Notes under the pieces: generated by a model
The model's input: the letters and a program-made list of their open reading frames with translations, nothing else
The model's database searches: none
What the model was told of the DNA's origin: nothing
Program-made: the position numbers and the translations under genes
Shown: positions 16,195 through 64,000 of the stretch, in pieces
How the letters are laid out: each line of letters starts with the position of its first letter
Numbering within the stretch: position 1 is the stretch's first letter
Source: Actinomycetota bacterium
GTDB lineage: Bacteria; Actinomycetota; Acidimicrobiia; Acidimicrobiales; JAMCPL01
DNA: 64,000 nucleotides
Direction: 5' to 3'
Assembly: GCA_023379675.1 (NCBI GenBank)
Contig: JAMCPL010000016.1
Span: forward strand, 55,897-119,896

Positions 16195-19100
16195 CTACGA
16201 CGTAGCCGCCGTAAACCATCCCGACACATCGACAAGCACGTTGACACTGCCACTTCCACCGCCATTGGCAATATTCACCGTACCACTCGAAGTGAGCCCG
16301 CCAATCACCATGTTCGCACTAGTGGTGCCAACCCCAAAGTTGACGTCTGAAGTCGTCGGAGCAGTACTGCCTGAATATACCGTCAGGTAACCTCCACCGG
16401 TTCCACCGGTTGCAGTGACATTGCCAACAAACGCAGTTGCGCTGCTCGGTATACTATCAATACCTGTCACCTGAGCGGTGATCGACTTGCCTGCCGATAC
16501 CGCCCCCAGCGTCGCATTGGCACTGGGCAGGTTTTCAGAAGCACAGAAGCTCGGCGCTGACGACACGCTGCACCTGGTATCCACAATCCTTGCCGGTGTG
16601 ACCGGGTTGAATAGCGAACCAGTCTGGCTGGTGGATGACCCATCGGTGTAGTAGCCGCTCACGTCCACTATGAAGTTGGCGGTGCCGGAATTGTTATAGA
16701 GCGTGATTGCCCCATTGGCACCGACTTCTACGATCACCCTGTTCGGTACGGTCTGGCCGGCAATCCAGTTGACGGTTGACACCGTAGCCTTGCTGGCGCC
16801 TGCAGGGTAGGCGGTGAAGTAACCGCTACTGGATGTGTTAACTGCAGTGAGATTCAACACCACTGCAGATACTCCACTTGATGGGACCGGACCAACACCA
16901 GTTACCGTGACGTTCTCAGTCTTGCCTGCACCGAGGGTAACGAGCTTACCATTGGCACTCGGAATGGCCGAGCAGTAGCTGCTTGTTATACCAGTAGGCA
17001 ACGGCGACTCGCTGCACCTGCTGTCCGCCAATCTTGTCGGAGTGACGGCATTGTAAAGACCAGCGGGTGTACTACCCGGAGGTGCGTAGTAGCCCTCTAT
17101 GTCCACTATGTAGTTCACAGCGCCACTCGTGCCGCCATTGGCCACGCTAATCTCACCATTCGAGGTGTTTACAGGCACCGTCACCAGGTTGGTAACCACC
17201 TTAGTGGTAGATGTCCAGTTGAGACTGGAAACCACCGCAGGGGTCGAGCCCTCAGGATAGATGCTCAAGTAACCGCCACCAGTCATATTGACTGCAGTCA
17301 CATTAACCACAACGGCTGTAGCGGTCAACGGAATGGCATCCACGCCGGTTACGGCCACATTCTCGGACTTACCTGCCGCCAGGGTACCAAGAGATGCATT
17401 TGCACTCGGCAGGTTCTCACCAGCACAGTAGCTTGGCGCCGGTGAAGCGCTGCAACGCGTGTCGGCCAGCCTCATCGGGTTCACTGGCGTATATGCATCA
17501 CCGCTAATCGCCACCACATATGTGAACTGATCGGCAGATGAGGTCGCTGACGTGCCTCCAGCGGTGGTGACTGTCACATTGACCGTGCCTGCAGACTCCG
17601 CAGGAGAGGTGGCGACAATCGACGTTGACGAGCTGACCGTTGCGGCGGTCGCAGTCACCGCACCGAACATCACCGTAGCACCAGAGGCAAAATTGGTACC
17701 TGTGATAGTAACTGCGGTACCGCCAGAAGTCGGGCCGGATACTGGGCTGATGCCACTTACCGTAGGCAGCGCAATTATGGTGTAACTCGATGTATTGACA
17801 GGCACAATGTCAGTCGAAGTGTTGACACCGAGTGTGTAGCTGCCCATCGCTGGGTTGGTCACCCCACTTACAGCAACTGTGACAGCGGTCGAATCAGCAA
17901 CCGCAACCGGACTGGTAATAGTAACCGTATCGGTACCACCACCCGAAACGGTAGCAGCAGCGGTAGCATTGACCGTGTAATCACCAGCACTGGTCGGGAA
18001 CACTGTACCGCTTGGGGCAGTGAAGGTAATAGTACCACTGTTGGCGGCAAGCGCACCACTGGAGCTGGTTGTAAAGCCAACCGTGTACGTTGCACTTACA
18101 CCGGCCAGATTGCTGCTTGGACTTGGACCCGTAACGCTTGAGACGGACGAACCAATAGCATAAGAGGCTGTGTCCACAGGTACCGTATCCGACGACGTGT
18201 TCACCGCCATGGTATAGCTACCACTGGATGGATTAGTGACACCCGATATGGCAACCTTCACTACCGACGAATTGCCTATCGCAATCGGCGTGGTGATCGT
18301 AACCGCACTCGTGCCACCACCACTCAGTGTCGTTACTGCAGTACCACCTACCGTGTAATCCGATGCAGCAGAGGGAAATATCGTACCGCTCGGAGACGTG
18401 GTTAGAGTAATCGTACCGCTACCCGCCGCCAGTGCGCCAGTTGTGCTGGTCGTGAAGCCAACAGTGTAGGTGGCACTAGTAGCCGGTGTCGCCGGACTTG
18501 GCGATGGCCCCGTTAGGCTTGACACCGCACCTGTGATTTGATAGCTACCGGTGGAACTGGGAGCCAGATCAGCCGAAGTATTTACATTCAACATGTAAGT
18601 TCCTGCGGGTGGATTGACAACACCCACGATAACAATGCTAACCGGCATAGTGACACCCACCGCCGTGGGAGTGGTGATGGTAGCCGTCGAGTCCGAGTTA
18701 CTAAGTGCAACCGTAGATGCCGCTACAGCAGCACCGCTATTCACACTGACCGTATATGCCGACGCCGCAGACGGGAACACGGTACCCGCAGGCGCTGCGA
18801 GGGTGATCGTACCCGTTCCAGCCGAAAGCGCACCGCTGGAACTGGTTGAGAAGCCCACAGTATACTGCGCAGACTCGCCAGAACCCTTCAGCGTCATCGA
18901 AACACTAGGACTACTGACTGCACTCTCGATCGTGTAGCTCGAGGTAGGCACGACAGCTTGATCCGCCGAAGTACTTAGATACTCGCTGTAGGTGCCGGGC
19001 GAAGGATTGGTAACACCGTTGATCACAAGTGTTCCTGCGGCGGAATCAGCAATACTCTGCAGCGGCTGTAACTCCACTTGGGCACAACTCCATCCACTTA

Positions 19101-22100
19101 GTGCGGCTGGAAGAGCTGATGGGCATGTTGCCGCAGCACTATGAGCAGCTATACCGTCAACCACAAAATCCGATGCACTTGACGTAGGCAGCCCCGTCGC
19201 TGTGCCACCAGTTGCCGCAGGCGGTACCACAACATAAACATAGTTGAGGATACTACTGGTAGTGGTGTCAACTAGCCCGCCAGTCGCACTGGTAGTGAAG
19301 CCATACACGTACTGCGCCGTTGTCGGATCAGCAGCCAAATTGCTAACCATGGGGCCGGTAACCTTGCTGAGACCGGTATACACAGAAATAGATGGCTCCA
19401 AAGGCGATGTACCATAGGCACAGGTAACACCACCAAGTGGGCAACTGTCCGACGAGGTGGTGATATCCATAGAGTATGTAGTAGACGGAGCCATCACTAC
19501 CGGCCCATTTGTTACACCATTTATCACTACGGCAACTGAAGCACCGCCAGCCACATCCGTCGGCGTAGTGATCGTGACGGTCGCATCGGAATTACTGAGA
19601 GCCACTGTCGATGCAACGACTCCGTTCACCGTATACGCAGTTGCAGATGACGGGAAAACGGTACCGCTCGGGGACGTAGCAAGAGTAATCGTACCTGTCC
19701 CTGCCGCTAATGAACCACCGGTGGAACTCGTAGTGAAGCCAACCGTATAAAGTGCAGACTGGCCTGCAGCATTATTACTGGACTTCAAACCAGGACTAAC
19801 AACCGACCCTGGGAGGGCAACAATTGTGTAACTCGGCCCAGGAACAAGACCCTTTGAATCGATGCTCGACTTCACTGAAAATGCGTATGAACCCGCAGCC
19901 GGATTTGTCACACCACTTATTACAATAGTAACAGTAGCTGACGCGCCCACCGAAACCGGCAGATCAATGACCGGGACATCCGTAGTTGACGATGCTGCAA
20001 GGCTCACCGCAGCAACACCATTGACAACATAGTCCGAAGCAATGGTTGGCAATGCAGAGCCCGCGGTAGATGTAAGCGTTATGGTGTCATCAATGTTCAA
20101 TCCGCCAGTACTGCTTGTATTGAAAGACAGCACATACTGGTTACCAGGGGTAGTAGCAAAACTATTGGGTGATATACTCGGTCCCGTAACACCAGTTACA
20201 AATTGTGGCGACGACAACGGCGACGACGGCACGTCATACCAATTACTGTTCACCGGCGTAGTGTCCGACGAGGTATCCACACTGAGCTGGTAGCGACCCG
20301 TTGCCGCATCAGTAGTGACGCTAACAGACACACTCACAACATCCGTGGCAGGCACCGCCGTTCCAATATCCAACGTTACCGAGTTCGATCCTGATACCGG
20401 AACGCTGCTGACGGTAACCGAAGAGGTTGCCGTCGTGTTCGTAACGGTGTAGCTCCCGGTGGCACTTGGAAACTCAACTCCGCTCGGGGCCACGATGCTG
20501 ATGCTACCGCCTGACTTTATACCACTTGTCGAGGTGAAGCTGATGCTGTAGGTGCCCGAGCTATCGGACGCACTAACGTCGCTAACTGCCGTTGCTGAAG
20601 TGATCGTATATGAGGACGACGGAGACGGGTAGTCATTCGCCGACGTAAGTACCGCACCAAGCTCCGCAGTGTTGGAGGACACGGTCGGGTTGGTCACGCC
20701 AGCCACCACTACGGTTACGCTAGAGGAGTCAGCCACCGATACCGGCGTAGTAATAGTTGCCATAACTATAGGACCAGAGGTCACCGGAGTAACTGTACCT
20801 GACGCAGCTACTCCATTCACGGTGTAGTCCGTTCCAGAAGTCGGGAAGGCCGTACCTGCGGTGGCATTGGTACTCGACGCACTCGGAGCAACGAGCGTAA
20901 TGGTATCCGTTCCGGCAGTAAGTGCACCGGTGCTGCCGGTAGTAAAGCTATAGGTGTAATTTGCGATTGCTCCCGATGCCAGACTGGTGGGATTGGGCCC
21001 GCTAACACTTGTCACCTCCGTAGCCACGTTAAACGCTACTTTTGCTGGAGCCTGATCTGTTGAATCACTCACATAAAGATCAGTTGAACCAGCAGTTGTT
21101 GTATTGGTAACGCCAATCACATTGACCGTGACAGTCGTACCTGACGAAATAGTTCCTACCGGGTTGGATATGGTGACGCTGTCAGTTCCCCCACCCGTGA
21201 TGGTGGTAGCGGCGACACCACCGGTGCCGGAATTCACCGTATACGAGCTTGGAGCTGTCGGGAACGCAGTTCCGGTCGGCCCCGTCAGCGTAATGGAGCC
21301 ATTGGAAGCAATCCCGCTTGTGGCAGAAAATGTAATTAGGTCATTGGAACCGCCACCTGCAAGTACCGCACTTGGGTCAGGACTTGTTGTAAGGGTTACC
21401 GAGCCAACCTCAGTAGGAGCCGTCACGATCGAGTAGCTGGAGGTAGCTACCGGTGCCGCATCCGAGGAGGTGGATACATCAAGGGTATAACTACCTGCAG
21501 ATGTGGGATTGGTCACATCATACACGACCACGGTTACACTGGCAGAGTCAGGTATGGTTGTGGTCAGTGGATTGGTAATGACAGCACAGGTTGCGCCAGT
21601 CACAGTTCCGGATGGGCACGATGAACTCACACCAGTAGCGGCAACATTGTTCACTGTAAAATAGGATGGCGTCGCCGGCCATGTGGTTTTACCCGTTGGG
21701 TCAATCAAGGTAATGGTTCCCGGCGTCGTAGCCGTTGAAGCGGCAATTGCGCCAGTCGAGGAGGTTTTGAAGCCAATTGTGTAAATTGACGGATCACCTG
21801 CGTAGTTACTGTTTGGTCCACTTGGAGACGGACCTGTCACATTCGTAACTGAGGTGGCTACTGCCGAAATGGTGTAGCCGGAGGTGTTGACCGGAGCCGT
21901 GTCTGCGGAGGTGCTAACCGCCATGGTGTATGTCCCTGCAGGAGGATTGGTCACGCCGTTTGCCACGACAGTAACTGAAGTACCGTCAGCCACAGCCGTC
22001 GGAGTGGTGATGGTCGCCGTCGCATTGGAGTTGCTCAGGCTGGGCGTTGCCGATACCGCTATGCCATTGACCGTGTACGCACTTGCAGAAGATGGGAAGA

Positions 22101-22623
22101 CCGTGCCGGTCGGTCCGGCAAGCGTGATGGTTCCTGATCCGGACGCAAGCGCGCCACTGCCACTCGTGGTGAATCCGACCGTGTACAGCGATGACGCACC
22201 AGCCGTCGCCGGACTCGGGCTTGGCCCGCTATTGATTGTGACCGAGGTGGCCGCGAACGCGGTACTGCCCAGAAATGGCAACATACCGAGTCCCGCCATC
22301 AGCGCAATGCTCACGCTCGCTATCGCCCTACTGAAATAGCGCAACTTGGCGGACCGGACGGTCCCTGTTTGGCTGCTAATGGTTTCTTGCTCGTCCACGG
22401 CTTTGTGACCTCCTCTGTCGTATTCCATGAATGGACCTTTGTTCGACTCTTGCACTTTGTCGCTCCACCTTTCGTATGCGCTCATGTACTTACCACCAAA
22501 ATCTACACTCATCCGATCTCCCGATGCAAATCCACCCGATCTCCGGGCCCGTCCCGAGCTTCTACTCTTACGGTTATCCATGTTTTCACCATTCATATTG
22601 CTGTCCGTATGACTGTTTATCAT
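16195..22623 (-). CDS. Giant secreted/surface repeat protein: signal-peptide-like segment, about 11 Thr/Ser-rich repeats, IPT/TIG domain, three C-terminal RLADTRCS repeats
   Basis: Repeats of YTVGFTTSSTGALAAGTGTITL...VFPSSASAYTVNG...VTITTPTAVA...VVVAGVTNP..GTYTMAVSTSSD; VSGISPVSGPTSGGTAVTITGTNFASGATVMFG; three blocks starting PV(N/T)P(M/T/A)R(L/I)(A/V)D(T/S)RCS. Confidence 0.85.
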   Translation of the reverse strand: MINSHTDSNMNGENMDNRKSRSSGRARRSGGFASGDRMSVDFGGKYMSAYERWSDKVQESNKGPFMEYDRGGHKAVDEQETISSQTGTVRSAKLRYFSRAIASVSIALMAGLGMLPFLGSTAFAATSVTINSGPSPSPATAGASSLYTVGFTTSGSGALASGSGTITLAGPTGTVFPSSASAYTVNGIAVSATPSLSNSNATATITTPTAVADGTSVTVVANGVTNPPAGTYTMAVSTSADTAPVNTSGYTISAVATSVTNVTGPSPSGPNSNYAGDPSIYTIGFKTSSTGAIAASTATTPGTITLIDPTGKTTWPATPSYFTVNNVAATGVSSSCPSGTVTGATCAVITNPLTTTIPDSASVTVVVYDVTNPTSAGSYTLDVSTSSDAAPVATSSYSIVTAPTEVGSVTLTTSPDPSAVLAGGGSNDLITFSATSGIASNGSITLTGPTGTAFPTAPSSYTVNSGTGGVAATTITGGGTDSVTISNPVGTISSGTTVTVNVIGVTNTTTAGSTDLYVSDSTDQAPAKVAFNVATEVTSVSGPNPTSLASGAIANYTYSFTTGSTGALTAGTDTITLVAPSASSTNATAGTAFPTSGTDYTVNGVAASGTVTPVTSGPIVMATITTPVSVADSSSVTVVVAGVTNPTVSSNTAELGAVLTSANDYPSPSSSYTITSATAVSDVSASDSSGTYSISFTSTSGIKSGGSISIVAPSGVEFPSATGSYTVTNTTATSSVTVSSVPVSGSNSVTLDIGTAVPATDVVSVSVSVTTDAATGRYQLSVDTSSDTTPVNSNWYDVPSSPLSSPQFVTGVTGPSISPNSFATTPGNQYVLSFNTSSTGGLNIDDTITLTSTAGSALPTIASDYVVNGVAAVSLAASSTTDVPVIDLPVSVGASATVTIVISGVTNPAAGSYAFSVKSSIDSKGLVPGPSYTIVALPGSVVSPGLKSSNNAAGQSALYTVGFTTSSTGGSLAAGTGTITLATSPSGTVFPSSATAYTVNGVVASTVALSNSDATVTITTPTDVAGGASVAVVINGVTNGPVVMAPSTTYSMDITTSSDSCPLGGVTCAYGTSPLEPSISVYTGLSKVTGPMVSNLAADPTTAQYVYGFTTSATGGLVDTTTSSILNYVYVVVPPAATGGTATGLPTSSASDFVVDGIAAHSAAATCPSALPAALSGWSCAQVELQPLQSIADSAAGTLVINGVTNPSPGTYSEYLSTSADQAVVPTSSYTIESAVSSPSVSMTLKGSGESAQYTVGFSTSSSGALSAGTGTITLAAPAGTVFPSAASAYTVSVNSGAAVAASTVALSNSDSTATITTPTAVGVTMPVSIVIVGVVNPPAGTYMLNVNTSADLAPSSTGSYQITGAVSSLTGPSPSPATPATSATYTVGFTTSTTGALAAGSGTITLTTSPSGTIFPSAASDYTVGGTAVTTLSGGGTSAVTITTPIAIGNSSVVKVAISGVTNPSSGSYTMAVNTSSDTVPVDTASYAIGSSVSSVTGPSPSSNLAGVSATYTVGFTTSSSGALAANSGTITFTAPSGTVFPTSAGDYTVNATAAATVSGGGTDTVTITSPVAVADSTAVTVAVSGVTNPAMGSYTLGVNTSTDIVPVNTSSYTIIALPTVSGISPVSGPTSGGTAVTITGTNFASGATVMFGAVTATAATVSSSTSIVATSPAESAGTVNVTVTTAGGTSATSSADQFTYVVAISGDAYTPVNPMRLADTRCSASPAPSYCAGENLPSANASLGTLAAGKSENVAVTGVDAIPLTATAVVVNVTAVNMTGGGYLSIYPEGSTPAVVSSLNWTSTTKVVTNLVTVPVNTSNGEISVANGGTSGAVNYIVDIEGYYAPPGSTPAGLYNAVTPTRLADSRCSESPLPTGITSSYCSAIPSANGKLVTLGAGKTENVTVTGVGPVPSSGVSAVVLNLTAVNTSSSGYFTAYPAGASKATVSTVNWIAGQTVPNRVIVEVGANGAITLYNNSGTANFIVDVSGYYTDGSSTSQTGSLFNPVTPARIVDTRCSVSSAPSFCASENLPSANATLGAVSAGKSITAQVTGIDSIPSSATAFVGNVTATGGTGGGYLTVYSGSTAPTTSDVNFGVGTTSANMVIGGLTSSGTVNIANGGGSGSVNVLVDVSGWFTAATS

Positions 22624-50346: not shown

Positions 50347-50374
50347 TTATCGGTAGGGAATGATTAAATCTTTA
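50347..50374 (-). promoter_or_regulatory. Sigma28 (FliA)-like promoter TAAAGATT-N12-ACCGATAA upstream of flgB
   Basis: 7/8 match at each box to the TAAAGTTT / GCCGATAA consensus, one extra spacer base. Confidence 0.65.
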
Positions 50375-50475: not shown

Positions 50476-51342
50476 ATGTCATTACAAGAGACAGACGCTT
50501 GGTCGGAACTGGACAGTGCATTCCAGAATGAGCTCTCCTCCGATCTGGACCTCGAACATATCCGGCTCCTCACCCAGACAGTGACTTCGGCACCCGGCAG
50601 GAGAGCGCTATTGCAGGCATTGCATCTGGGTGACCGGAAGCACGTGCTCGACCTCGGCACCGGATTCGGCCCGGTGGTATTCGAGCTGGCCGCCCTCGGC
50701 ATCAATGATCTCTGCGGCGTTGACAACGATCAAACAGCCCTCTCCGCCGCTCGACGCATCACCACATCGCTACAAGCTTGGATACCTGGCGGATGCAACT
50801 TGAGATTCGATGAGGGCGATGCCACCGACCTGCAATTCGACGATGCCTCATTCGATCTGGTCACCTCCTTCCTCCTTTACCAGCATGTGGATGACCCACT
50901 GGGACTCACAGCTGAAGCGTGGCGAGTGCTCGAAAATGGCGGGCTCTTCTGTGCCGTCGAGGTCGACAATGGCCTGTCCGTCATGTATCCTGAGCCTTCC
51001 GAAGCCGTTACCAGGTTGGAAGAGGCCTACGACCGCCTGGCAAGCAGCAAGGGCGGCGACAGGCTGATTGGGAGGAAGCTCTCCACGATGCTCGACAACC
51101 AGGGTTTCAACATAGCGGCCATCCTCGTCCTGCCCAACGCCGCTCACGGACCAAGTCGCCCCGGCGACCTGGGACGCCAGCTCGACTTGGAAAGATTGAT
51201 GATAGCAAGGGACGCTATCGTTGGAGCAGGTCTGTTGACCCCCAACGAGATGGATGAATACCTGAGCATCTACGCCACCGAGGAAGCGTCGATCAGATTC
51301 AGACTTGAAACCCTCATAGCCGTGGTCGGGCAGAAGCCATAG
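50476..51342 (+). CDS. Class I SAM-dependent methyltransferase
   Basis: HVLDLGTGFGPVVFELAALGINDLCGVDND; FDEGDATDLQFDDASFDLVTSFLLYQHVDDP. Confidence 0.9.
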   Translation: MSLQETDAWSELDSAFQNELSSDLDLEHIRLLTQTVTSAPGRRALLQALHLGDRKHVLDLGTGFGPVVFELAALGINDLCGVDNDQTALSAARRITTSLQAWIPGGCNLRFDEGDATDLQFDDASFDLVTSFLLYQHVDDPLGLTAEAWRVLENGGLFCAVEVDNGLSVMYPEPSEAVTRLEEAYDRLASSKGGDRLIGRKLSTMLDNQGFNIAAILVLPNAAHGPSRPGDLGRQLDLERLMIARDAIVGAGLLTPNEMDEYLSIYATEEASIRFRLETLIAVVGQKP

Positions 51343-52486: not shown

Positions 52487-55072
52487 CTATAACCCCGGCA
52501 ACTGGGCGATGGAAGAAGAGAGCATGGCGCCCTGGTTCTTCAAAGATCCCAAAGTGGCCTCCATCTGAGCGAACTGGGCCTCCAGCGTCTTTTTCTCCTG
52601 AGCGACTATCTGTGAATAGAAAGCTATCTGCGGATCGAGACCTGTCGACTGCTGTTGAAGGCTGTTGATCGTGGTGGTGACGGAACCATTGATGGGACTT
52701 GATGCCGCGTACATCTGGCTGGAAAGCTGCTGGCCGAGACCCTGGACATAGGTGATATTAGTCGAAATCGGATATGTCAGGGTGCCTGGCGTGGTAATCT
52801 GCAGATCCAGGCCGGCGAGCGGGGAATTGGTGGTCGGAAATGCCAGGTACTGGCCATTCCCCGTACCGTATACATCGGTACCGTTCACATCTATGTATCC
52901 CGCGACATTCTGACCGGCATAGGTATAAGTGGTATTGGCCGCCGCCGCCAGCCCGGTAGTGCCCGTTCCCGAGGCGGTCGACGACAGGGTAAAGCCTGCA
53001 GAACCACCATAGGAGTTGGATGTAACCTGTACGGCATAGCCTGAAGTAGTGTCCACCACCTGGGCAGATAGAGCCATACTGTTGTTTGCAAAGGTCTGGT
53101 TGAGACCCTGGGCTATGGCGGAGAGCGTCTCGCCCACCGTAGTGGCATAAGTTGCCGTAGCGCCCCCGCTACCCACCGTCAGGGTCTCGGCAGTCGATAC
53201 TGTCGAGGTCGGAGATGAATAGTATTCGTCTCCGGTATCGGTAGCCTGTAGGGCAGGCTGGGTAACGGTCAGAGCGTATGTACCAGGCTGGGTCTGGTTA
53301 GACGCGTACACCAGGCTGATCTCAGAAGTGTAAGGCGATCCCGAGGGAAGCTGGATGCCCTGCTCGAAAAGGGCGGCCACCTGGTGAGGATGGGCTGCAA
53401 ACTCAGACTCGAAGGTAGTCTGATTGAAACTTATCGTGCCATTTGAAGTGACGCTGATGCCCGCCGCCAGCGCGTTGCCAAGGTTTGAGGTACCGCCATT
53501 TGTTGCAAAGGTGGAGAGGATCTGACCCTGTATCCCTTGCAGTATGGCGTTGCCCATGAGGGGCCCCGCAACCTTGCTCTGATCGTTGTACCCGGCATAC
53601 TTCTGGATATCGGAGAGAACCTGGTTTGCGGCGGTAACCAGGTTCTGAACCTGCGTTGCCTGACCGGCGGCATTGGGCGCAACGGTGATGGTCGTGCTGC
53701 CAGTACCGGTTACCGTTACATTGGTGCCTGGCATCACATTGTTGAAGGTATCAGTCTGAGATGACAGCGTGTAGCCGCTCGTGCCACCCACCGAAATCTG
53801 GGCATTCTGAGCAGATTGGATGGCGTTCATGTTTCCAAGTACGGTTCCAAACGGGTTGTACGCGTCCGCACCGCTCAACGGGACGGTGATCTGCCCGTCT
53901 GTTCCAGTGGTGCTGGATGCAAGCTGGAGGATGTAAGCTCCCGACGAGGTCTGCACGGCTGAAGCTGTGACACCTGCACCTGCCGCATTGATATTATTGA
54001 CCACGTCCCCCAATGATCCATTGCCCAAAGATATATTTGTCGCACTTACCGTTCCGGTGGAGAGCGCCGCCGTAGATCCATTCGGCCCGGTTGCACCGGC
54101 AAACTTCACCTCTATAGAGCCGCCACTCGAGTCTCCGGAAGTGAGCTGCACCTCCCCCCCAGGAGCAATGTTGGTAATCGTGTTGGAAGTGCCGTCGACA
54201 TTGACAACGGCATTCACTCCGCTCACGGTCGTACCGGTCGGGAGATCCAGCGCTGCGGCAGCCGTAGAGGGATCCGTAGTAGCGGTGGAGGAATTGATTT
54301 CAAGGGTATCGGCGCTACCGGAATCGTTGGTGGAGACCACAAGCTCACCGGAGGAATTGAGCGAGAAGTTCACTGGAGCACCCGCGGACGATGCCGCCGA
54401 GTTCAGGTCGGAGACGATCTGGCTCGGAGAAAGGGTCGTGCCGGTAGGTAGCGTGAGGGAATATGCGGTTCCATTCACCGTCAGTCCCAGAGTGTTGTCG
54501 GAGGTAGTGAAGGATTGGGAGGTCAGTGCAGCCGTACCGGTAATTGTGGCGGCTTGAGATGCCTGGGTCACCTGTATTGAATGGCTCCCGAGAGCAAGCC
54601 CCGATCCCTGGACAGTGGCGAGCCACTGGAAGCCGTAGTTCTCCGCTCCTTTCGAAAGTAGGTACTGTGAATCGGATGTGATGCTCGTGGATGTCGAGCT
54701 GACCGAGTTCTGGCTGGCAAGTATCTCGGCTTGGGCGAGCTGGTTGACGGAAAAAGTGAGCGATCCAGACGCGGCACCGGCCGTTGCAGTGGCGGTGGCT
54801 ACGGAGGTGTCGGAAGAAGAAGCTGTCATCAGGTTCCATCCGGAAGGCGTGGAAAGCGACTGGGCGGCGGTCTGGAATGCCGCTATGTCCTTGTTGATCG
54901 CTTGCCAGTCCTTGACCTGGGAATTGATCTGGGACTGCTGGTTCTCGAGATTGGTGACCGGAAGCTCGTATGACTGGAGTAAGGCGCTGATAACCTGCTG
55001 GGTATTGATGCCGGATATAAGCCCGTTCACCAAGAACTGGGGTGAAAATCCTGATGGACTCGTAATTGACAT
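52487..55072 (-). CDS. fliD: Flagellar filament cap protein FliD
   Basis: GFSPQFLVNGLISGINTQQVISALLQSYELPVTNLENQQSQINSQVKDWQAINKDIAAFQTAAQSL; C-terminal coiled coil EKKTLEAQFAQMEATLGSLKNQGAML. Confidence 0.95.
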   Translation of the reverse strand: MSITSPSGFSPQFLVNGLISGINTQQVISALLQSYELPVTNLENQQSQINSQVKDWQAINKDIAAFQTAAQSLSTPSGWNLMTASSSDTSVATATATAGAASGSLTFSVNQLAQAEILASQNSVSSTSTSITSDSQYLLSKGAENYGFQWLATVQGSGLALGSHSIQVTQASQAATITGTAALTSQSFTTSDNTLGLTVNGTAYSLTLPTGTTLSPSQIVSDLNSAASSAGAPVNFSLNSSGELVVSTNDSGSADTLEINSSTATTDPSTAAAALDLPTGTTVSGVNAVVNVDGTSNTITNIAPGGEVQLTSGDSSGGSIEVKFAGATGPNGSTAALSTGTVSATNISLGNGSLGDVVNNINAAGAGVTASAVQTSSGAYILQLASSTTGTDGQITVPLSGADAYNPFGTVLGNMNAIQSAQNAQISVGGTSGYTLSSQTDTFNNVMPGTNVTVTGTGSTTITVAPNAAGQATQVQNLVTAANQVLSDIQKYAGYNDQSKVAGPLMGNAILQGIQGQILSTFATNGGTSNLGNALAAGISVTSNGTISFNQTTFESEFAAHPHQVAALFEQGIQLPSGSPYTSEISLVYASNQTQPGTYALTVTQPALQATDTGDEYYSSPTSTVSTAETLTVGSGGATATYATTVGETLSAIAQGLNQTFANNSMALSAQVVDTTSGYAVQVTSNSYGGSAGFTLSSTASGTGTTGLAAAANTTYTYAGQNVAGYIDVNGTDVYGTGNGQYLAFPTTNSPLAGLDLQITTPGTLTYPISTNITYVQGLGQQLSSQMYAASSPINGSVTTTINSLQQQSTGLDPQIAFYSQIVAQEKKTLEAQFAQMEATLGSLKNQGAMLSSSIAQLPGL

Positions 55073-55337: not shown

Positions 55338-56195
55338 TCAGATCAGCTTCAGGATAAGTGAAGGCGCAGTCTGGGCCTGAGCCAGCATCGCCACACCAGT
55401 CTGCATGAGGATCTGGTCCGTGCTGAAGGTGGTCATTTCCTGTGCCATGTTCACGTCCACCATGCCGGAGTACGCTGCCTGCAGGTTCTGGTTGCCGACG
55501 GTAAGGTTGGCAACCAGGGCGCCCAACTCGTTCTGCGTGGCACCAAGTGATGACTCTATGGTGTCCACCGAATTGAGAGCACTCTGCACGGCGGCAATTG
55601 CCGCCGTTGCCGACGCGGCATTTGCAACCGACACGGATGCGGCGAGTAACCCAAGTGCACCTGTAGTCACTGCATTCATGCTGAGGCTCACCTGCTGGTA
55701 AGCATTCGCTCCGCCGGCCGTGCCAGCAGCCTGGGCGAATGCACCGACCTGGATGACAAAGGTCTGATTAGAGTTCAGCAACTGCGTGGTGCCATAGCTG
55801 GTCGAATTGGCTATCTGATCGATCTGGGCCTGCAACGCCGAAAACTCCTGCTCGTTGGCGCTCAGCGACGTGGAGTCATTGGTTGCCGAGTTGGCGGAAG
55901 CCACAGCCAGCTGATCCATGGTCTGCAGTATCGAAGTGATCTGGTTGAGCGCTCCGGTAGCCGTCTGCACCATCGCCGTAGTGTTCTGGGCATTCGACAT
56001 CGCCTGCTGGTAACCGGTCGACTGGAAAGACAACGCCTCCGAAGTCACATACCCTGCCGGGTTGTCCGCTGCAGTCTGTATCTGCAAGCCCGACGAGAGC
56101 CGTGATATTGCGGTGCTCATTGCCGAATCCGTACTGTTCAAGTTGTTGTAGGCCTGGATGGCCGACATATTTGTATTTACTACTAGAGATGACAT
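55338..56195 (-). CDS. fliC: Flagellin
   Basis: VNTNMSAIQAYNNLNSTDSAMSTAISRLSSGLQIQTAADNPAGYVTSEAL; VDVNMAQEMTTFSTDQILMQTGVAMLAQAQTAPSLILKLI. Confidence 0.97.
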   Translation of the reverse strand: MSSLVVNTNMSAIQAYNNLNSTDSAMSTAISRLSSGLQIQTAADNPAGYVTSEALSFQSTGYQQAMSNAQNTTAMVQTATGALNQITSILQTMDQLAVASANSATNDSTSLSANEQEFSALQAQIDQIANSTSYGTTQLLNSNQTFVIQVGAFAQAAGTAGGANAYQQVSLSMNAVTTGALGLLAASVSVANAASATAAIAAVQSALNSVDTIESSLGATQNELGALVANLTVGNQNLQAAYSGMVDVNMAQEMTTFSTDQILMQTGVAMLAQAQTAPSLILKLI

Positions 56196-56329: not shown

Positions 56330-56356
56330 TTATCGTCCAGCCGGTACGAAACCTGA
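56330..56356 (-). promoter_or_regulatory. Sigma28 (FliA)-like promoter TCAGGTTT-N11-GACGATAA for fliC
   Basis: 6/8 and 7/8 matches to TAAAGTTT-N11-GCCGATAA with exact spacing. Confidence 0.7.
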
Positions 56357-56376: not shown

Positions 56377-56404
56377 TCAAGTAATCTTCGCGGGTTGCCG
56401 ATAG
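56377..56404 (+). promoter_or_regulatory. Possible sigma28-like promoter TCAAGTAA-N12-GCCGATAG for the giant glycosyltransferase
   Basis: -10 box 7/8, -35 box 5/8, spacer one longer than consensus. Confidence 0.4.
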
Positions 56405-56491: not shown

Positions 56492-59400
56492 GTGAAAAGG
56501 CCATCTCTGGCCATCATTATAGAAATAGGGTCGTCTTGGTGGCACGCGCAGAGGTGCCTCGATACTTTGCGCCCGGCATTGGACTTGCAAAGGAACAAGG
56601 TCATAGCCCTGCCGTCCATGCATGCACAATCTGAACCGGCGATCAAGACAGGACTCAACGGCCCTAATGCGGAAGATGCGTGGATATCCATAAATACCCG
56701 CTCCAAGCTCGACCTGTATCCGTGGGTGCACATCATGGACATGGACATGAGCAATCCGCCTACCTACGGATCCATGCTCAACCAAGCGATGAGCCGTTTC
56801 GACTTACTGGCATACGACATCCTGCTCATCATCGACAGCTACACACTCATCGATTCCGTAGCGTTGCGCCAGATCGTAGAGACTTACCGCAACCCTAAGG
56901 TTGGCGCAGCGGGACCGCTCTCGAATGATGCCGATGGGAAGCAGTTGCTGTCCGAGACTTCCTACGACCCAGACGATGCGCAATCCCTGCGTGATTTTTC
57001 CCGTAAATGGGCCACTCAGCACGGCAACGAAACGTCCATGACCGATTGGCTCGACCACGTGGCCCTGACTTTTCGGTGCTCTGCCATCACTTCCTCGCAC
57101 CTGTCATTCAACGCGCAGCTCCACGATCCGGTATACGTAAAAGAGGACATGCTGAGGCGAATAGCCCAAACAGGCTGGCAGCTCCAGATCGCAACAGGAG
57201 CTTTCGTGCATCATGAAAGCTCCGATTACCGCTTGGCGCCGGCTGCGGACCGGGATCTCTTCTTCCATTTACATGGAGAATATCCAAGATCTACGCCTCC
57301 CCTGCTGGTATCAGCCTGTCTAATCACAAAAAATGAAGAGAGCAACCTGCCCGACTGCCTGAAGTCATTGGACGGATTCGCCGACGAGATCGTAATCTAT
57401 GACACGGGATCGTCCGATGGAACTGCCGAGATCGCACGGGGCTACGGCGCCACCGTCATCAACGGTTACTGGAATGATGACTTCTCGAAAGCCAGGAATG
57501 CAGCGCTGGCAAGCTGCAAAGGGCGGTGGATCCTCTGGATCGACGCTGATGAAAGACTATCCTACAATGACCCCGCCGGTATAAGGCAGTCCCTGGCGGA
57601 AATGCCCTCCAATATAGAGGGCTGCCTCGTACACATAGACAATCTCGAAGGAACCGGAGTCACCTCCGCCTTTACTCACCCAGCCTGCAGGATGTTCCGT
57701 CGCACCAGGTGTCATTGGCATGGACGCCTGCACGAGCAGATCTCCCTGATCGATAGAGACGCGAAGAGGGCGCCATTTCTCGTGCCGTTTTCCAAGATAC
57801 GCCTGTTGCATACCGGCTATCTCGATGAGGCTGTTCGCAGCCGTGCAAAGCCGGAACGCAACCTGGCGCTGGCGGTCGAAGAGATGGAGGACCTGGAAGG
57901 TAGGGATGAGTCGTACGTGAAGATCAGCCTTGCCCGCTCGAAGGCTATGGCAGGCGACATGGAAGAAGCCGTAAAAGTATCGCTCGAAGCTGCCGAGAGC
58001 GCCACCGACCCGACCACGAAAAGACTGGGAATCCAGACCGCCATACAAGGGCTGATCGGCCTGGGAAGGCTGGATGAGGCCCTCGAACAAGTTGAGGTGC
58101 TGCGCGGCTGCTCCGCCAACCCGGTGACTGCGAACAGCCTGGAGGCAACGATAAGATTGCAACAGGGCAAGCCTGAATCGGCACTAGCCCTCCTAGAAAC
58201 AATTGGCTCGAGGGAAGTCGACGACGACATGTTCGAGTACCGGGCAAGCCAGTTTGCAGGGATCAAGGCCCGCGCTCTCGCGGCCATGGGCAGGCACTCC
58301 GAAGCTGCGGACATACTCTTGACCTCGCTTTCCGAGGCGGGCACCCTCGACGCCCATCTAGGTGATCTGCTCGATGCCCTGGAAAGGGCCGGGCGCTCTC
58401 CTGGCGAGATCGTCGGCGCTCTCGAGAAGGGGAAGCGGCTTACTGCGTTCATGGCCCAGATAGTCCAGCTGGATCCCGAAAAGGCCGACTCGGTGCTGCA
58501 GGCATGCTACGAGCACTGGAAAGACTACGGCATGCTAAGCCAAGTAATGGCCGCCGCCGGCCTGGTCGCGAAGCGCCTTCCAGTCCTCAATGCGCTGGAG
58601 TGGTCGGCCAGGCTGAGGCTGCTGAGGCTGGGAGAGTCATGCCCGTTGCTCGGCAAAGCAAATGACACCAGCCAACCGTTGGCGGAAAGGGCGCTTGCCG
58701 CCGCTACCGCCATCTATGCCTTCGGTGACTCATCGGCATACCGGGCGCTCCGCTCCATCCTGAAAGAGGCCCTAGCAGCAGATCGTAACGGCACCGAGAT
58801 GAACGACCCTGCCGAGCTGAAGACGGTGCTGGCAGGCATCGAAGTCCTTGCCCCAGGGGCCACCGCCCGAGCGCTGCTGGATGCCAGCATAATCATTTAC
58901 TGCCACAACGATGCAATCGCGACGCAGGAATGCCTTACTTCGATCCAGCAGAATACCACACCTGGATCCTACGAGGTAATCCTTGTCGACGATGCATCCA
59001 CCGATGCCACCAGGGAATTGGAGATGGCAAGCAACCCCTATTTCAGGATCCACAGGAATCCCAGCCACCTTGGAACGATGGAGAGCTACCGCCTGGTATC
59101 CCAACTCGCCAATGCTCCTTGCATCCTGCTCGTGGACCAGCACTCGCAGGCCCTCCCGGGATGGGCAGAGCCACTGGAAGGCATGCTCGATGCCCATTCC
59201 CGTGCCGGCAGGAAAGCTCTAACGTTGACTGGCCGGCTCACCGAAGGATATGCACCTGCGGAAAACGCAGTTGTCTTGCGCAGGGACGCTCTGCACCTGA
59301 TCGACTGGGGCGCCGTTCGTAGCATAGAAGGCATCCCGCCTCAATTGAACGCGCCACTTTTCCACCGAGAGGGCACTAAAGAGAGTACAGAGGGTACGGC

Positions 59401-62119
59401 ATCGAGCGAAGGGAATGAGAACAACGCCGAAGATACCTCCTCCCCACAGGCACCCCTTACGTCCCCTGTACACGTAATTGGCCAACTCGGCGTTGTAAGT
59501 GGGCTGGGACAGGCTGCAAGATTACTCGTCGACACTCTCGCTGCAGCAGGAATTCGCTCGATGTGCACATCTCTGGACGCTCTTCATCGAGAATCTGCTT
59601 ATGCTTACCCGCAAACCTCAAATTATGACGGCCATGCAGAGGAGCATGACATCGACATTATCTGCTTCTATCCTGACGCGTTTGTCTCACTGCTTGACAA
59701 CGAGGAACTGACCTTGTGCAACGCCGGCTACAGGATAGGCCGGTGGGATTGGGAGCTCGAGACGCCGCCCGCTCTGACCCAAAGGGCTCTTCCATATGTA
59801 GACGAGATATGGGTATTGAGCGACTTCGAGCGTGCGTCTTTCTCGCGAGCCACTTCCAAGCCGATCCATGTCTTTCCTTACCCAATCGCAGCACGAGACC
59901 ACCCACCCGTATACTCCCGCTCGGCCCTCGGCATACCGGAAGGCTTCCTCTTCCTCTCCATGCTCGATCTATGGTCCACCGCTGGAAGAAAGAATCCGGC
60001 TGGACTGATCGAGGCATTCAGTAGGGCATTCACACCCGGTGAAGGACCGGTGCTCCTCATTAAGATCCACAATGCAGACAAGACAGCCGACCTCATAGGA
60101 CTCAGACACCTGGCAAGAGGTCGTAGCGACATAGTGCTCGTAGTGAATGACATCTACGCAGACGACCGCATAGACTCGCTTGTCGCCAACTGCGATTGCT
60201 ATGTGTCGTTGCATCGTTCGGAAGGATTCGGCTTACCTCTGGCGAATGCCATGTCGTGGGGAAAGCCGGTGATTGCCACCGGATATTCAGGAAACCTGGA
60301 CTTCATGGACAGCAGCAATTCATATCTTGTCCCATGGCGGTACACAGAGCCGGGACACGATGCTGGCCATTATCTCAAAAGTGCAATATGGGCGGAACCA
60401 GACCTGGATGCCGCTGCCGGCATTATGCGATATGTCTATGAGCACCAGGAAGAAGCAAGAGCAAGGGGAGCACTTGCGAGAGAATCGATAAGGGCCAGCC
60501 ACTCCCCGGAAACATCGATAGCTTTCCTCAGAGAGAGGATAGGCACCATCCAGCAGGAGCTTCTGTCACCAGCACGGCTGCCGTCACGCAGCATTGAAGA
60601 TGATGCTACCCCTCATTCCCCTGGCAACACGGGTACGGGTAGTCCGGGTCGGCCCATTGCTGCCGGCACATCACCATCATCTACGTCATCATCGTCTCTG
60701 CCACTGCCACCATCGCGTAGCATATCTAGACTATCGCGTGTCGATGGAGTGGACCTCCTGCCACCTGGTGGCAACTATCGAGGAAGCCTCATCGTGTTCC
60801 AAGCAGTGGACCGAGCGATCGACGGCTCACCGTTCCCACGCCGCTTGCTGGCCAAGAACGATGTCGCGCAGCACGATGTCGCGCTGTTGTTCATGAATCC
60901 CGATGCCATCCCGTCGTTTGCGGTGGAACGCGGCCAGGACTTCTTCGAACGGTACACGATCTGCTGTTTCGATTGGCCGCTGGAAGAGCTATCGGCAAAT
61001 ATGAAAAGGGGACTCAGGTATGTAAACGAGATATGGGTCCCCTCCGAACGGGCATACCGGGCAGTGTCCAGTGCCGTCAACAAGCCGGTAGTCAAATTGC
61101 CGATCCAGCCTGCGGATGTCATGAGGCATACTTTCACGACACTGTTTGATCGACCGGCCACCACTCCCCATACCGCTGCCAGTACCGCTCCAGCCATATA
61201 CGACACCGTCCCTGCCTCCGATATCTCCTCCGACTCATCGCTGCAAGCACTGAACATTGATCCAGATCGGCCATACCTACTCAGTGTCATCGACACACAC
61301 CATCCTTTCGAGATGACCAATGCTCTTGGCACGATACAGGCATTCTCCAGGGCATACCCGGATCCCAGCAGGTCCTCTCTACGGCCAATGCTCGTCATCA
61401 TCCAGACATCCGGGACATTCAGGCCCGGTCAGCTCGACGTCATCAAAAAAGCCATAGCAGGCCGGGACGATATGGTAATTGCTGGTCCATTGAGCATGGA
61501 ACATATCGTGTCATTGACCGGAAGGTGCAGCGGCTACATCTCGCTCCATCGTGCAACAGGGTTCAACTGGCCACTCCTGCTCGCCACCTCGTTCGGTATA
61601 CCCACTATAGCCACAGACAGTCCCGCCGGTGAGCGATGGAGCACCGCTGTGTCTTTCCACCCGGTCTCCGCAAACGAGGGTACGGTGCCGTCAGGCTGCT
61701 GGCCCTACCCCGAAGGCATGTCCTGGACAGAGCCGGATATAGCGGAAGCGTCTTCGCTGATCGCCAGGGTGTTCGAGGATGAGATCACCAATCTCGACCT
61801 TTCCAACGGCAAGCAAATCCTAACCCGTCACGATCCTCCAAAAGACATACCCCCTCTCGCCAGCGGTGCACATGCCACCGATCAAACGGTGGAGAAAGAC
61901 ATGAAGTCCATAATCACCTCCAGGCTTCATTTCGCCCACAATGCGTTCAGAAGAGCGAACCAACTCGCCAGGCTCCGCGGTAGACGGCAACTTCCCTCGT
62001 ATGCGCCTGTTACGACGCATGACACAGATGATATGGATGGTGTGGATAGTGTGGATGACATGGATGGCAGCACCAGCCCCGGTGCTTACGGTAGATGGCT
62101 AAAGCAGTTCGACACCTGA
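56492..62119 (+). CDS. Giant multi-domain glycosyltransferase (about three GT2-like modules, TPR-like region, two GT4-like modules)
   Basis: SACLITKNEESNLPDCLKSLDGFADEIVIYDTGSSDGTAEIARGYGA...WILWIDADERL; ASIIIYCHNDAIATQECLTSIQQNTTPGSYEVILVDDASTDAT; VHVIGQLGVVSGLGQAARLLVDTL...HRSEGFGLPLANAMSWGKPVIAT; HRATGFNWPLLLATSFGIPTIAT. Confidence 0.88.
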   Translation: MKRPSLAIIIEIGSSWWHAQRCLDTLRPALDLQRNKVIALPSMHAQSEPAIKTGLNGPNAEDAWISINTRSKLDLYPWVHIMDMDMSNPPTYGSMLNQAMSRFDLLAYDILLIIDSYTLIDSVALRQIVETYRNPKVGAAGPLSNDADGKQLLSETSYDPDDAQSLRDFSRKWATQHGNETSMTDWLDHVALTFRCSAITSSHLSFNAQLHDPVYVKEDMLRRIAQTGWQLQIATGAFVHHESSDYRLAPAADRDLFFHLHGEYPRSTPPLLVSACLITKNEESNLPDCLKSLDGFADEIVIYDTGSSDGTAEIARGYGATVINGYWNDDFSKARNAALASCKGRWILWIDADERLSYNDPAGIRQSLAEMPSNIEGCLVHIDNLEGTGVTSAFTHPACRMFRRTRCHWHGRLHEQISLIDRDAKRAPFLVPFSKIRLLHTGYLDEAVRSRAKPERNLALAVEEMEDLEGRDESYVKISLARSKAMAGDMEEAVKVSLEAAESATDPTTKRLGIQTAIQGLIGLGRLDEALEQVEVLRGCSANPVTANSLEATIRLQQGKPESALALLETIGSREVDDDMFEYRASQFAGIKARALAAMGRHSEAADILLTSLSEAGTLDAHLGDLLDALERAGRSPGEIVGALEKGKRLTAFMAQIVQLDPEKADSVLQACYEHWKDYGMLSQVMAAAGLVAKRLPVLNALEWSARLRLLRLGESCPLLGKANDTSQPLAERALAAATAIYAFGDSSAYRALRSILKEALAADRNGTEMNDPAELKTVLAGIEVLAPGATARALLDASIIIYCHNDAIATQECLTSIQQNTTPGSYEVILVDDASTDATRELEMASNPYFRIHRNPSHLGTMESYRLVSQLANAPCILLVDQHSQALPGWAEPLEGMLDAHSRAGRKALTLTGRLTEGYAPAENAVVLRRDALHLIDWGAVRSIEGIPPQLNAPLFHREGTKESTEGTASSEGNENNAEDTSSPQAPLTSPVHVIGQLGVVSGLGQAARLLVDTLAAAGIRSMCTSLDALHRESAYAYPQTSNYDGHAEEHDIDIICFYPDAFVSLLDNEELTLCNAGYRIGRWDWELETPPALTQRALPYVDEIWVLSDFERASFSRATSKPIHVFPYPIAARDHPPVYSRSALGIPEGFLFLSMLDLWSTAGRKNPAGLIEAFSRAFTPGEGPVLLIKIHNADKTADLIGLRHLARGRSDIVLVVNDIYADDRIDSLVANCDCYVSLHRSEGFGLPLANAMSWGKPVIATGYSGNLDFMDSSNSYLVPWRYTEPGHDAGHYLKSAIWAEPDLDAAAGIMRYVYEHQEEARARGALARESIRASHSPETSIAFLRERIGTIQQELLSPARLPSRSIEDDATPHSPGNTGTGSPGRPIAAGTSPSSTSSSSLPLPPSRSISRLSRVDGVDLLPPGGNYRGSLIVFQAVDRAIDGSPFPRRLLAKNDVAQHDVALLFMNPDAIPSFAVERGQDFFERYTICCFDWPLEELSANMKRGLRYVNEIWVPSERAYRAVSSAVNKPVVKLPIQPADVMRHTFTTLFDRPATTPHTAASTAPAIYDTVPASDISSDSSLQALNIDPDRPYLLSVIDTHHPFEMTNALGTIQAFSRAYPDPSRSSLRPMLVIIQTSGTFRPGQLDVIKKAIAGRDDMVIAGPLSMEHIVSLTGRCSGYISLHRATGFNWPLLLATSFGIPTIATDSPAGERWSTAVSFHPVSANEGTVPSGCWPYPEGMSWTEPDIAEASSLIARVFEDEITNLDLSNGKQILTRHDPPKDIPPLASGAHATDQTVEKDMKSIITSRLHFAHNAFRRANQLARLRGRRQLPSYAPVTTHDTDDMDGVDSVDDMDGSTSPGAYGRWLKQFDT

Positions 62120-62159
62120 AGTGATCCCCAATACCGTGAAAATCAGACTACCAGCAGGA

Positions 62160-62176
62160 GGGCTGCATGGCAGCCC
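62160..62176. other. Perfect hairpin GGGCTGC-ATG-GCAGCCC between the two glycosyltransferase genes
   Basis: 7-bp stem, 3-nt loop; no T-tract. Confidence 0.7.
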
Positions 62177-62206
62177 GTGTAGTACCGCCGGGAGGCTGCG
62201 GCAGGC

Positions 62207-64000
62207 GTGAAAATAGTAATCGACCTGCAGGGTGCGCAGGCAGAAAACCGGTTTCAAGGGATTGGGCGTTACTCGCTTTCTCTGGCCAAGGCCATTGCCG
62301 CCAACGCCGGGGAACATGATGTATATATAGTGCTGAGCAAGAGCTTGCCAGGTACTATTGAGGATATCCGGGCTGCATTCCAGCATGTGCTGCCCCAGGA
62401 GCGTATCGTGGCCTTCAGCGTCCCTGATGGTACGGCGGCACTCAGGTGCACCAGTCCCTTTAGAGCCAGGGCGGCCGAGTTGCTCAGGGAGCAGTTCCTG
62501 GCAGGATTGAAGCCTGACGTTGTCCTGCTGACAAGTCTCTTCGAAGGTATTGTTAGCGACTCTGTCACCTCTATAGGTCTGCTGCCATATACGTACCTTT
62601 CTGCAGTGGTGCTTTACGATCTCATCCCGCTTGCCATGCCGCAGGACTACTTACGGGATGAAATCCGGGACAGATGGTATCGGAGAAAACTGGAACATCT
62701 GAAGCGGGCGGATCTGGCACTTGCTATTTCGGAGTTCACGAAAAAGGATGCAGCTCGCCTGTTGGGGATGGAATCTCATCGTATGGCGGTAATCGGGTCC
62801 GCTGCAGATGGCATCTTCAAGCAGTTGGATCTAGCAGAACATGAGCAGATCCGCATAAGGAAGCGTATGGGCATATCGAAGCCGTTTGTCCTGTCGGTTG
62901 CCAATACGAACGAACCCAGGAAAAACGTAGCTGGGCTGTTCCAGGCATTTGCCATGCTGCCGCAAGACATAAAGCACCGCTTCCAGCTCGTCATACCCAG
63001 CAGTGCCACCAAGGCCGAGAAGGACGCCACATTGCACCAAGCCAGGGAGGCCGGCCTGGGTGACGGTGATGTGGTGCTTACTGGATATGTCACAGATGAT
63101 GACTTGGTAGCTATGTACAACCTATGTTCGCTGTCTGTATTTCCTTCGCTATATGAAGGATTTGGTTTACCAGTGCTCGAGGCGATGGCATGCGGGGCGC
63201 CCGTAATATGCTCATCGACTACTTCCCTGCCAGAGGTGATGAGCTGCGATGAAGCTCTCTTTGACCCAGCGTCTCCCAGTGCAATAGCTGCCAAGATGAC
63301 CGAGGTGTTGGCTGATGATGCCTTCGCCGACCGGTTGGTGGGTAACGGCAGGAGGCAGGTGGCCAGATTCTCATGGGACAGGAGCGCAGAACTGGCCTTG
63401 GCCGCATTCGAGGATGCACTTGGCAGGAAAAATACATCTTTCAGTTTTGCCGGTGGTGTAACTGTCACAGGCGTAAGCACTGCCAAATATGTCGGCACAG
63501 AACCGGCAACGGTCACAGATGCAGCCACGGATGCAGCGACAGATGCGAGTACGAGCACTGCCAAATATGTCGGCACAGAACCGGCAACGGTCACAGATGC
63601 AGTTACGGATGCAGCGACAGATGCGGGTACGAGCACTGCCAAATATGTCGGCACAGAACCGGCAACGGCCACGGATGCAGCGACAGATACGGGCATGGGT
63701 CCGGTAGGAGGGACAGAGATGCATCGTGCCTCCGCTCACAATGCATCCAAACCATCCCTTGCCTTCATCTCTCCCCTTCCACCGGATCAGACCGGTATCG
63801 CCAGCTACAGTGCTGAGCTGGTACCTGCTCTGGCTGAGTACTACGACATTGAAGTCGTCACCGGCCATGGTGTCGGCAGCATCACCGGTGGTGGTGCACA
63901 TGGTACAACCATACGCACGCCGCAGTGGTTCGAGCGAAATGCCGACCGTTACGACCGGGTGCTCTACCAGATGGGCAATTCCCCCTTTCATATTTACCAG
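62207..64000 (+). CDS. Multi-module GT4 glycosyltransferase, truncated by window end (absent from the ORF track)
   Basis: GTG 62207; VKIVIDLQGAQAENRFQGIGRYSLSLAKAIAA...FVLSVANTNEPRKNVAGLFQAF...FPSLYEGFGLPVLEAMACGAPVICSSTTSLPEV; second GT4-like start LAFISPLPPDQTGIASYSAELVPALAEYYDIEVVTG; open to last base. Confidence 0.9.
   Translation, partial: MKIVIDLQGAQAENRFQGIGRYSLSLAKAIAANAGEHDVYIVLSKSLPGTIEDIRAAFQHVLPQERIVAFSVPDGTAALRCTSPFRARAAELLREQFLAGLKPDVVLLTSLFEGIVSDSVTSIGLLPYTYLSAVVLYDLIPLAMPQDYLRDEIRDRWYRRKLEHLKRADLALAISEFTKKDAARLLGMESHRMAVIGSAADGIFKQLDLAEHEQIRIRKRMGISKPFVLSVANTNEPRKNVAGLFQAFAMLPQDIKHRFQLVIPSSATKAEKDATLHQAREAGLGDGDVVLTGYVTDDDLVAMYNLCSLSVFPSLYEGFGLPVLEAMACGAPVICSSTTSLPEVMSCDEALFDPASPSAIAAKMTEVLADDAFADRLVGNGRRQVARFSWDRSAELALAAFEDALGRKNTSFSFAGGVTVTGVSTAKYVGTEPATVTDAATDAATDASTSTAKYVGTEPATVTDAVTDAATDAGTSTAKYVGTEPATATDAATDTGMGPVGGTEMHRASAHNASKPSLAFISPLPPDQTGIASYSAELVPALAEYYDIEVVTGHGVGSITGGGAHGTTIRTPQWFERNADRYDRVLYQMGNSPFHIYQ
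63475..63695 (+). repeat. 78-bp tandem repeat, about 2.8 copies, encoding STAKYVGTEPATVTDAATDAATDAST linker
   Basis: TGCCAAATATGTCGGCACAGAACCGGCAACG at 63481, 63559, 63637. Confidence 0.95.

Follow-up and report, generated by a model that had tools for sequence, protein, structure and literature searches.

A giant glycosyltransferase with a GmaR-like core beside the flagellin gene of an Acidimicrobiales bacterium

Among described flagellin glycosyltransferases (GT), the one whose core is closest to the protein studied here is GmaR of Listeria monocytogenes. This protein of 637 residues is both a flagellin O-GlcNAc (N-acetylglucosamine) transferase and an antirepressor of MogR: its N-terminal domain transfers GlcNAc to flagellin, and its tetratricopeptide repeats (TPR) have been proposed to recognise flagellin (PMC9638930). 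Our subject is an open reading frame (ORF) of 1875 residues, ORF1, found in a 64,000-nucleotide stretch, hereafter the window, of a genome of the order Acidimicrobiales (GCA_023379675.1, contig JAMCPL010000016.1). ORF1 lies next to the flagellin gene fliC and is followed by a second glycosyltransferase gene, ORF2. As in GmaR, a GT2 domain of this family precedes the TPR, here linked to flagellin by position; unlike GmaR, it carries three to five further GT modules fused to this core, and the antirepressor domain is not seen.

Other systems share parts of this design. SunS and related peptide S-glycosyltransferases belong, by profile, to the GT2 family of module 2 (E=3e-27), but SunS modifies a small peptide, on Cys, and has no link to flagellin. 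FlmG of Caulobacter crescentus is likewise a cytoplasmic protein that combines TPR with a glycosyltransferase domain, and its TPR domain binds flagellins (PMC7591256); in FlmG, however, the TPR comes first, a GT-B domain second, and the sugar is pseudaminic acid, whereas here the TPR stands after a GT-A type domain, between modules 2 and 3, and the genome has no NeuB match. The type B flagellin locus of Clostridioides difficile (GT1, GT2, GT3) has GT2-family enzymes beside fliC that add GlcNAc first and then extend it stepwise, the enzyme named GT1 adding GlcNAc and the one named GT2 two rhamnoses (PMC5207246); its genes are separate, in contrast to the single giant fusion described here. Fgt1 and Fgt2 of Pseudomonas syringae, encoded upstream of fliC, build a stepwise, Maf-independent glycan (PMC3927599): the likeness considered here is one of logic, and the evidence for rhamnose concerns that system only. 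Finally, the flagellin glycosylation islands of Geobacillus and Enterobacteriaceae hold highly variable GT2/GT4 and methyltransferase genes beside flagellin (PMC5109656, PMC4875605). Here too a glycosyltransferase gene adjoins the flagellin gene, but the island genes are mostly separate, whereas in this locus the giant core is conserved and the tails are exchangeable. The closest known systems are GmaR for the core, and the C. difficile type B locus and Fgt1/Fgt2 for the logic; the proposed mechanism is of the stepwise kind of flagellin O-glycosylation that does not depend on a lipid (PMC12645811). No fusion this large at a flagellin locus was found described in a literature search that missed most subscription journals, which makes it weak evidence of novelty.

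We read this locus, with a probability of roughly three in four, as a cytoplasmic, Maf-independent flagellin O-glycosylation locus in which modules 2 and 4 of the giant protein would work, modules 1, 3 and 5 would serve as scaffold, and the tails vary. Glycosylation of flagellin is well supported by genomic evidence: a core of the GmaR type, a conserved position beside the flagellin gene and joint occurrence with it across the order, sigma-28-like promoters that face both genes, and the lack of a Maf or NeuB match in the genome. On this point our analysis agrees with an original prediction, made from the letters of the window, of a flagellin-directed system distinct from the Maf pathway.

The giant gene and its GmaR-like core

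The frame of ORF1 opens with a GTG codon and contains zero internal stops. Its counterpart in a sister species (locus L004) has the identical GTG start, and the ratio of nonsynonymous to synonymous substitution rates (dN/dS) ranges from 0.15 to 0.28 across all modules, as expected under purifying selection. The shared start and these low ratios together identify ORF1 as a real gene.

Pfam, NCBIfam and homologue mapping give the module order GT2-GT2-TPR-GT2-GT4-GT4 (Table 1). The three GT2-like modules, two GT4-like modules and TPR-like region predicted for this ORF are thereby recovered, with the help of hhalign for the last module. Pfam reports GT2 above its cut-off in two stretches, the best at residues 274-358, a GT4 at 1166-1281 and, below threshold, a GT2 at 94-245; the third GT2 (~797-900) is detected by NCBIfam models. 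Module 5 falls below Pfam detection; compared with module 4 by hhalign (probability 100%, E=3e-41, 30% identity), it proves to be a diverged copy. Neither module 1 nor module 5 has a match in PDB profile searches.

The evidence for a GmaR-like core comes from module 2 and the region that follows it. With the single sequence as query, GmaR is the top match in the PDB (E=1.4e-27, residues 272-465). With a profile of 15 homologues, GmaR (E=7e-51) is followed by SunS, and almost the whole domain is covered; the DAD metal-binding motif, HE and other residues are invariant in these homologues. The TPR domain stands directly after module 2, as in GmaR proper. It is recognised by profile comparison, which matches the region to consensus proteins of TPR and pentatricopeptide repeats (PPR), and by an AlphaFold2 model, of low confidence and built on a two-sequence alignment, that is all-helical over residues ~473-766. 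The mean predicted local distance difference test (pLDDT) score of the models is 50 for residues 1-790 and 29 for residues 781-1810, and the solenoid alone was used: its blocks mostly score 60-84. A Foldseek search with this low-confidence solenoid lists the TPR of OGT (O-GlcNAc transferase) and GmaR among its matches, which is weak support.

Since GmaR unites glycosyltransfer and antirepression (PMC9638930), the giant protein might be a flagellar gene regulator of the same kind, with sugar transfer as a side activity. We consider this very improbable: what comes after the TPR is a series of GT modules, not an antirepressor domain, for which no C-terminal match was found, the truncated GmaR structure 7x9r being matched over residues 411-500 only; and in module 2 no catalytic residue varies.

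The genome also encodes a smaller, stand-alone GmaR-like protein of 491 residues, distant from flagellin (L053:8828-10303, on G000:C8), with counterparts at comparable positions in genomes G003 and G005.

Linkage to flagellin across the order

In the window, the giant gene is divergent from fliC, and fliD is next after fliC on the same strand. The flagellin had been called Ser/Thr-rich, and it is: Ser and Thr make up 22.8% of its residues, against mostly 10-16% in other long ORFs of the window. Its neighbour, announced as a Thr/Ser-rich surface protein and named as the alternative acceptor, has 27.3% of these residues and proves to be the filament cap FliD.

In a survey of 248 genomes of the order, with thresholds of E<=1e-40 for module 2 plus TPR and E<=1e-22 for flagellin, 36 genomes have both, 7 have the glycosyltransferase only, 12 flagellin only, and 193 neither (Fisher p=5e-26, with no correction for relatedness). 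When both genes are on the same contig, the distance between them is at most 3 kb in 26 of 30 cases and at most 8 kb in 28, and 20 of the 26 closest pairs are divergent. These distances include two weaker flagellin matches, G051:C251 (2.5e-14, a contig-end fragment) and G044:C5:43140 (8.8e-19); leaving them out, 24 of 29 pairs are within 3 kb. Homologues residing mostly in loci without flagellin had been named in advance as an outcome contrary to the original prediction: in the 248 genomes, the result is the opposite. The GmaR-type ORFs of the order range from ~450 to 2569 residues: the giant form is one extreme, and many relatives are shorter. Homologues of ~600-850 residues consist of nearly module 2 and TPR alone, and are also found beside fliC.

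The 296-bp gap between fliC and the giant gene holds two opposed sigma-28-like sites, which match 13 and 12 of the 16 positions of the Escherichia coli consensus. The window holds 8 sites at that level, compared with 3-7 in shuffles. Similar sites face the glycosyltransferase gene in L040 and L042, and the genome encodes a sigma factor of the FliA family (E=1e-74). The best site of the window, with 14/16 matches, is elsewhere, upstream of an apparent flgB (50347-50374, minus strand).

The Maf-independence of the locus is supported by domain searches of the genome, which is ~91% complete: neither the Maf-related family PF01973 nor the NeuB-family synthase (PF03102), which belongs to nonulosonic-acid pathways, has a match, and positive controls were detected in both searches.

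Several observations weigh against this reading. Twelve flagellated genomes of the order have no strong GmaR-TPR homologue, and seven genomes carry the homologue with no flagellin detected; some of these genomes are incomplete. The two genes are on separate contigs in 6 of the 36 genomes, and 17-100 kb apart in two more. The co-occurrence statistics ignore the relatedness of the genomes, and loci L036, L039 and L045 have no sigma-28-like site at the threshold used. A second Maf-related family, PF20157, also has no match in the genome, but that search had no positive control.

A different possibility is that the protein is a surface-polysaccharide glycosyltransferase that happens to sit beside fliC and does not act on flagellin. 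Its GT4 modules do resemble polysaccharide enzymes, and ORF2 originated in a non-flagellar locus, as we show below. But the same-contig linkage in 26 of 30 cases, the co-occurrence with flagellin, the sigma-28-like promoter and a core whose nearest relative modifies flagellin leave this explanation little room, and we judge it improbable.

Flagellated genomes without a GmaR-type gene mostly have better-scoring flagellins (E ~1e-37 or lower) than genomes that have one, hinting that a distinct flagellin type accompanies the enzyme.

Active and degenerate modules

In module 1, several order-level homologues have NND where the five family members read DSY, DSL, DSS or DDH, and the ED pair is retained; in module 3, a short domain, NND is replaced by DQH, DNH or similar, the sequence from G005 being read separately from the alignment. 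The last Asp of the metal-binding motif is gone from both modules in the family of the window. Module 4 keeps most GT4 signature residues, with a dN/dS of 0.18; the first Glu of its EX7E motif is invariant, and the second position is occupied by Asn in this protein, by Asp or Glu in relatives. In module 5, both Glu positions are lost in all four aligned sequences. Degenerate modules 1, 3 and 5 are not decaying: their dN/dS ratios are 0.16, 0.28 and 0.26. Judging from these motif states, modules 2 and 4 are probably active, and modules 1, 3 and 5 probably inactive.

The original prediction had the two proteins of the locus build a heteropolymer with all five modules at work, a claim at odds with the loss of key catalytic residues from modules 1, 3 and 5 in every family member examined. 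A five-enzyme assembly line, in which the giant protein alone would make a heteropolymeric glycan, is accordingly unlikely: the five modules do exist, each is under purifying selection, module 1 keeps its ED pair, and the NND of modules 1 and 3 in order-level homologues suggests that the ancestor probably had working versions; yet the last motif Asp is lost in both of these modules, the third is short, and neither Glu of EX7E survives in module 5. At the other extreme, module 2 could work alone, adding one sugar per site, with every other module structural. No other module is as conserved as module 2, and the shorter homologues beside fliC consist of little more than it and the TPR. Both points are in favour of this minimal version, which strikes us as the least unlikely of the alternatives, though still doubtful, given the signature residues, first Glu and selective constraint of module 4.

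Assuming that modules 2 and 4 are the working ones, the mechanism that we propose is the following. Transcribed from back-to-back sigma-28-type promoters, the giant protein would be made together with flagellin, and its TPR solenoid would hold the newly synthesised flagellin. Module 2, with a nucleotide sugar as donor, would place the first sugar on Ser or Thr, presumably in O-linkage, and module 4 would then attach at least one additional sugar. Modules 1, 3 and 5 are probably scaffold or acceptor-positioning domains. The variable tails or neighbouring genes would finish the glycan in a species-specific manner before export. In the sister species the finishing parts would be the fused GT2-GT2 tail and the sulfotransferase gene that comes after it; in this genome, a three-GT4 protein.

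Table 1. Features of the giant glycosyltransferase locus. Locations are window positions unless another locus is named.
Feature	Location	Strand	Evidence or remark
Giant multi-module glycosyltransferase ORF (ORF1), 1875 aa	56492-62119	+	Open frame, homologues, conserved flagellin linkage
Module 1, GT2-like, residues 1-262	56492-57277	+	Metal-binding motif lost, ED pair kept (alignment A2)
Module 2, GmaR/SunS-type GT2, residues 265-475	57284-57916	+	DAD motif intact; GmaR profile match; invariant residues (alignment A1)
TPR-like helical solenoid, residues 476-790	57917-58861	+	TPR/PPR profile matches; helices in model
Module 3, short GT2-like, residues 792-965	58865-59386	+	Metal-binding motif lost (alignment A5)
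Module 4, GT4, residues 985-1400	59444-60691	+	Pfam; first Glu of EX7E intact (alignment A3)
Module 5, GT4-like, residues 1450-1810	60839-61921	+	hhalign against module 4; both EX7E Glu lost (alignment A4)
ORF2, GT4 protein cut by contig end	62207-64000	+	Recent duplicate of three-GT4 gene
Sigma-28-like promoter toward giant gene	56377-56404	+	12/16 consensus matches, conserved in L004
Sigma-28-like promoter toward fliC	56330-56356	-	13/16 consensus matches, conserved in L004
fliC, flagellin, 285 aa, presumed acceptor	55338-56195	-	Pfam Flagellin_N and Flagellin_C
fliD, filament cap	52487-55072	-	Pfam FliD_N E=1.5e-23, FliD_C E=5e-21
APS (adenosine 5'-phosphosulfate) kinase and truncated sulfotransferase-like ORF	L051:17243-19504 (G000:C11)		Beyond contig gap

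The exchanged tail

ORF2 had been described as a second ORF with at least two GT4 modules, 87 bp after the first. The spacing is exact (62120-62206). As for the modules, base 64000 of the window is the end of contig C16, so that one full GT4 and the start of another are seen; an intact orthologue of 1287 residues (L061:3350-7213, minus strand) has three GT4 stretches. The linker between the GT4 modules of ORF2 carries a 78-bp tandem repeat (2.7 copies, 94% match, 63476-63688), and its paralogue at the end of contig C12 has fewer copies: the linker length is variable.

The first 1.5 kb of ORF2 is 94.6% identical in DNA to that C12 gene, with a synonymous divergence (dS) of 0.077 between the two copies, against 0.37-0.40 to the sister-species orthologue of the C12 gene. 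In the sister species (L004, on G003:C4), a single protein of 2564 residues has an extra GT2-GT2 tail. In this genome, ORF1 ends at the corresponding residue (FDT), and ORF2 comes next. The end of contig C11 holds the matching 3' end of the gene, 63 residues that are 87-95% identical to relatives. Beyond it come what is left of the ancestral GT2 tail (KELAWMRERW...DPAYNPNLSLETADFDLAWPPRIA), a sulfotransferase-like ORF that is truncated, an APS kinase, and ORFs resembling FliW and FlgL; the join of C16 to C11 is inferred from synteny. The near-identity to C12, together with the C11 3' end and its tail remnant in sister-species synteny, indicates that a duplicated segment from elsewhere in the genome has replaced the ancestral GT2-GT2 tail. 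An assembly chimera was considered for ORF2 and rejected: the two copies differ by ~5% in DNA, and C11 keeps a 3' end and tail remnant syntenic with the sister species. Another ORF of contig C11 looks WhiB-like.

ORF1 and ORF2 are not the system pair first imagined, ORF2 being a recent arrival in place of a different tail. Nor do they form a conserved pair, since relatives carry different neighbours: in G002, a protein with GT plus methyltransferase, and in G004 one that fuses GT2, methyltransferase and GT17. Such triple fusions occur near the flagellar locus of two genus members (L004:20195-22603 and L038:544-2820).

In the sister species, an intact sulfotransferase ORF lies directly after the giant gene (L004:17680-18561; its match to Pfam Sulfotransfer_3, with E=4e-4, falls short of the curated cut-off), and it is tempting to speculate that its flagellin glycan is sulfated. 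A bolder version of our reading, which we consider less likely than not, makes the giant protein a single-chain flagellin oligosaccharide synthase, formed of a GmaR-type initiator, an extender and a scaffold of degenerate GT modules, with tails exchanged between close species and a sulfated glycan in the sister species.

Two further ORFs of the window deserve mention: one of 2142 residues (16195-22623, minus strand), which has a TIG domain and a match to DUF2808 and probably encodes a large surface protein, and a methyltransferase dependent on S-adenosylmethionine (50476-51342, plus strand) between flagellar genes of the opposite strand.

The GmaR type of flagellin glycosyltransferase would now extend to an actinobacterial order, with initiation and probable extension fused in a single chain of 1875 to 2564 residues. 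Modules that are conserved yet catalytically degenerate offer a natural case for roles of pseudo-glycosyltransferases in acceptor handling or glycan length, and the replacement of a tail between two close species suggests that recombination could change the flagellar surface quickly. If the order-wide linkage can be taken at face value, flagellin glycosylation in these uncultured bacteria would become predictable from sequence, and could be tested in relatives amenable to culture.

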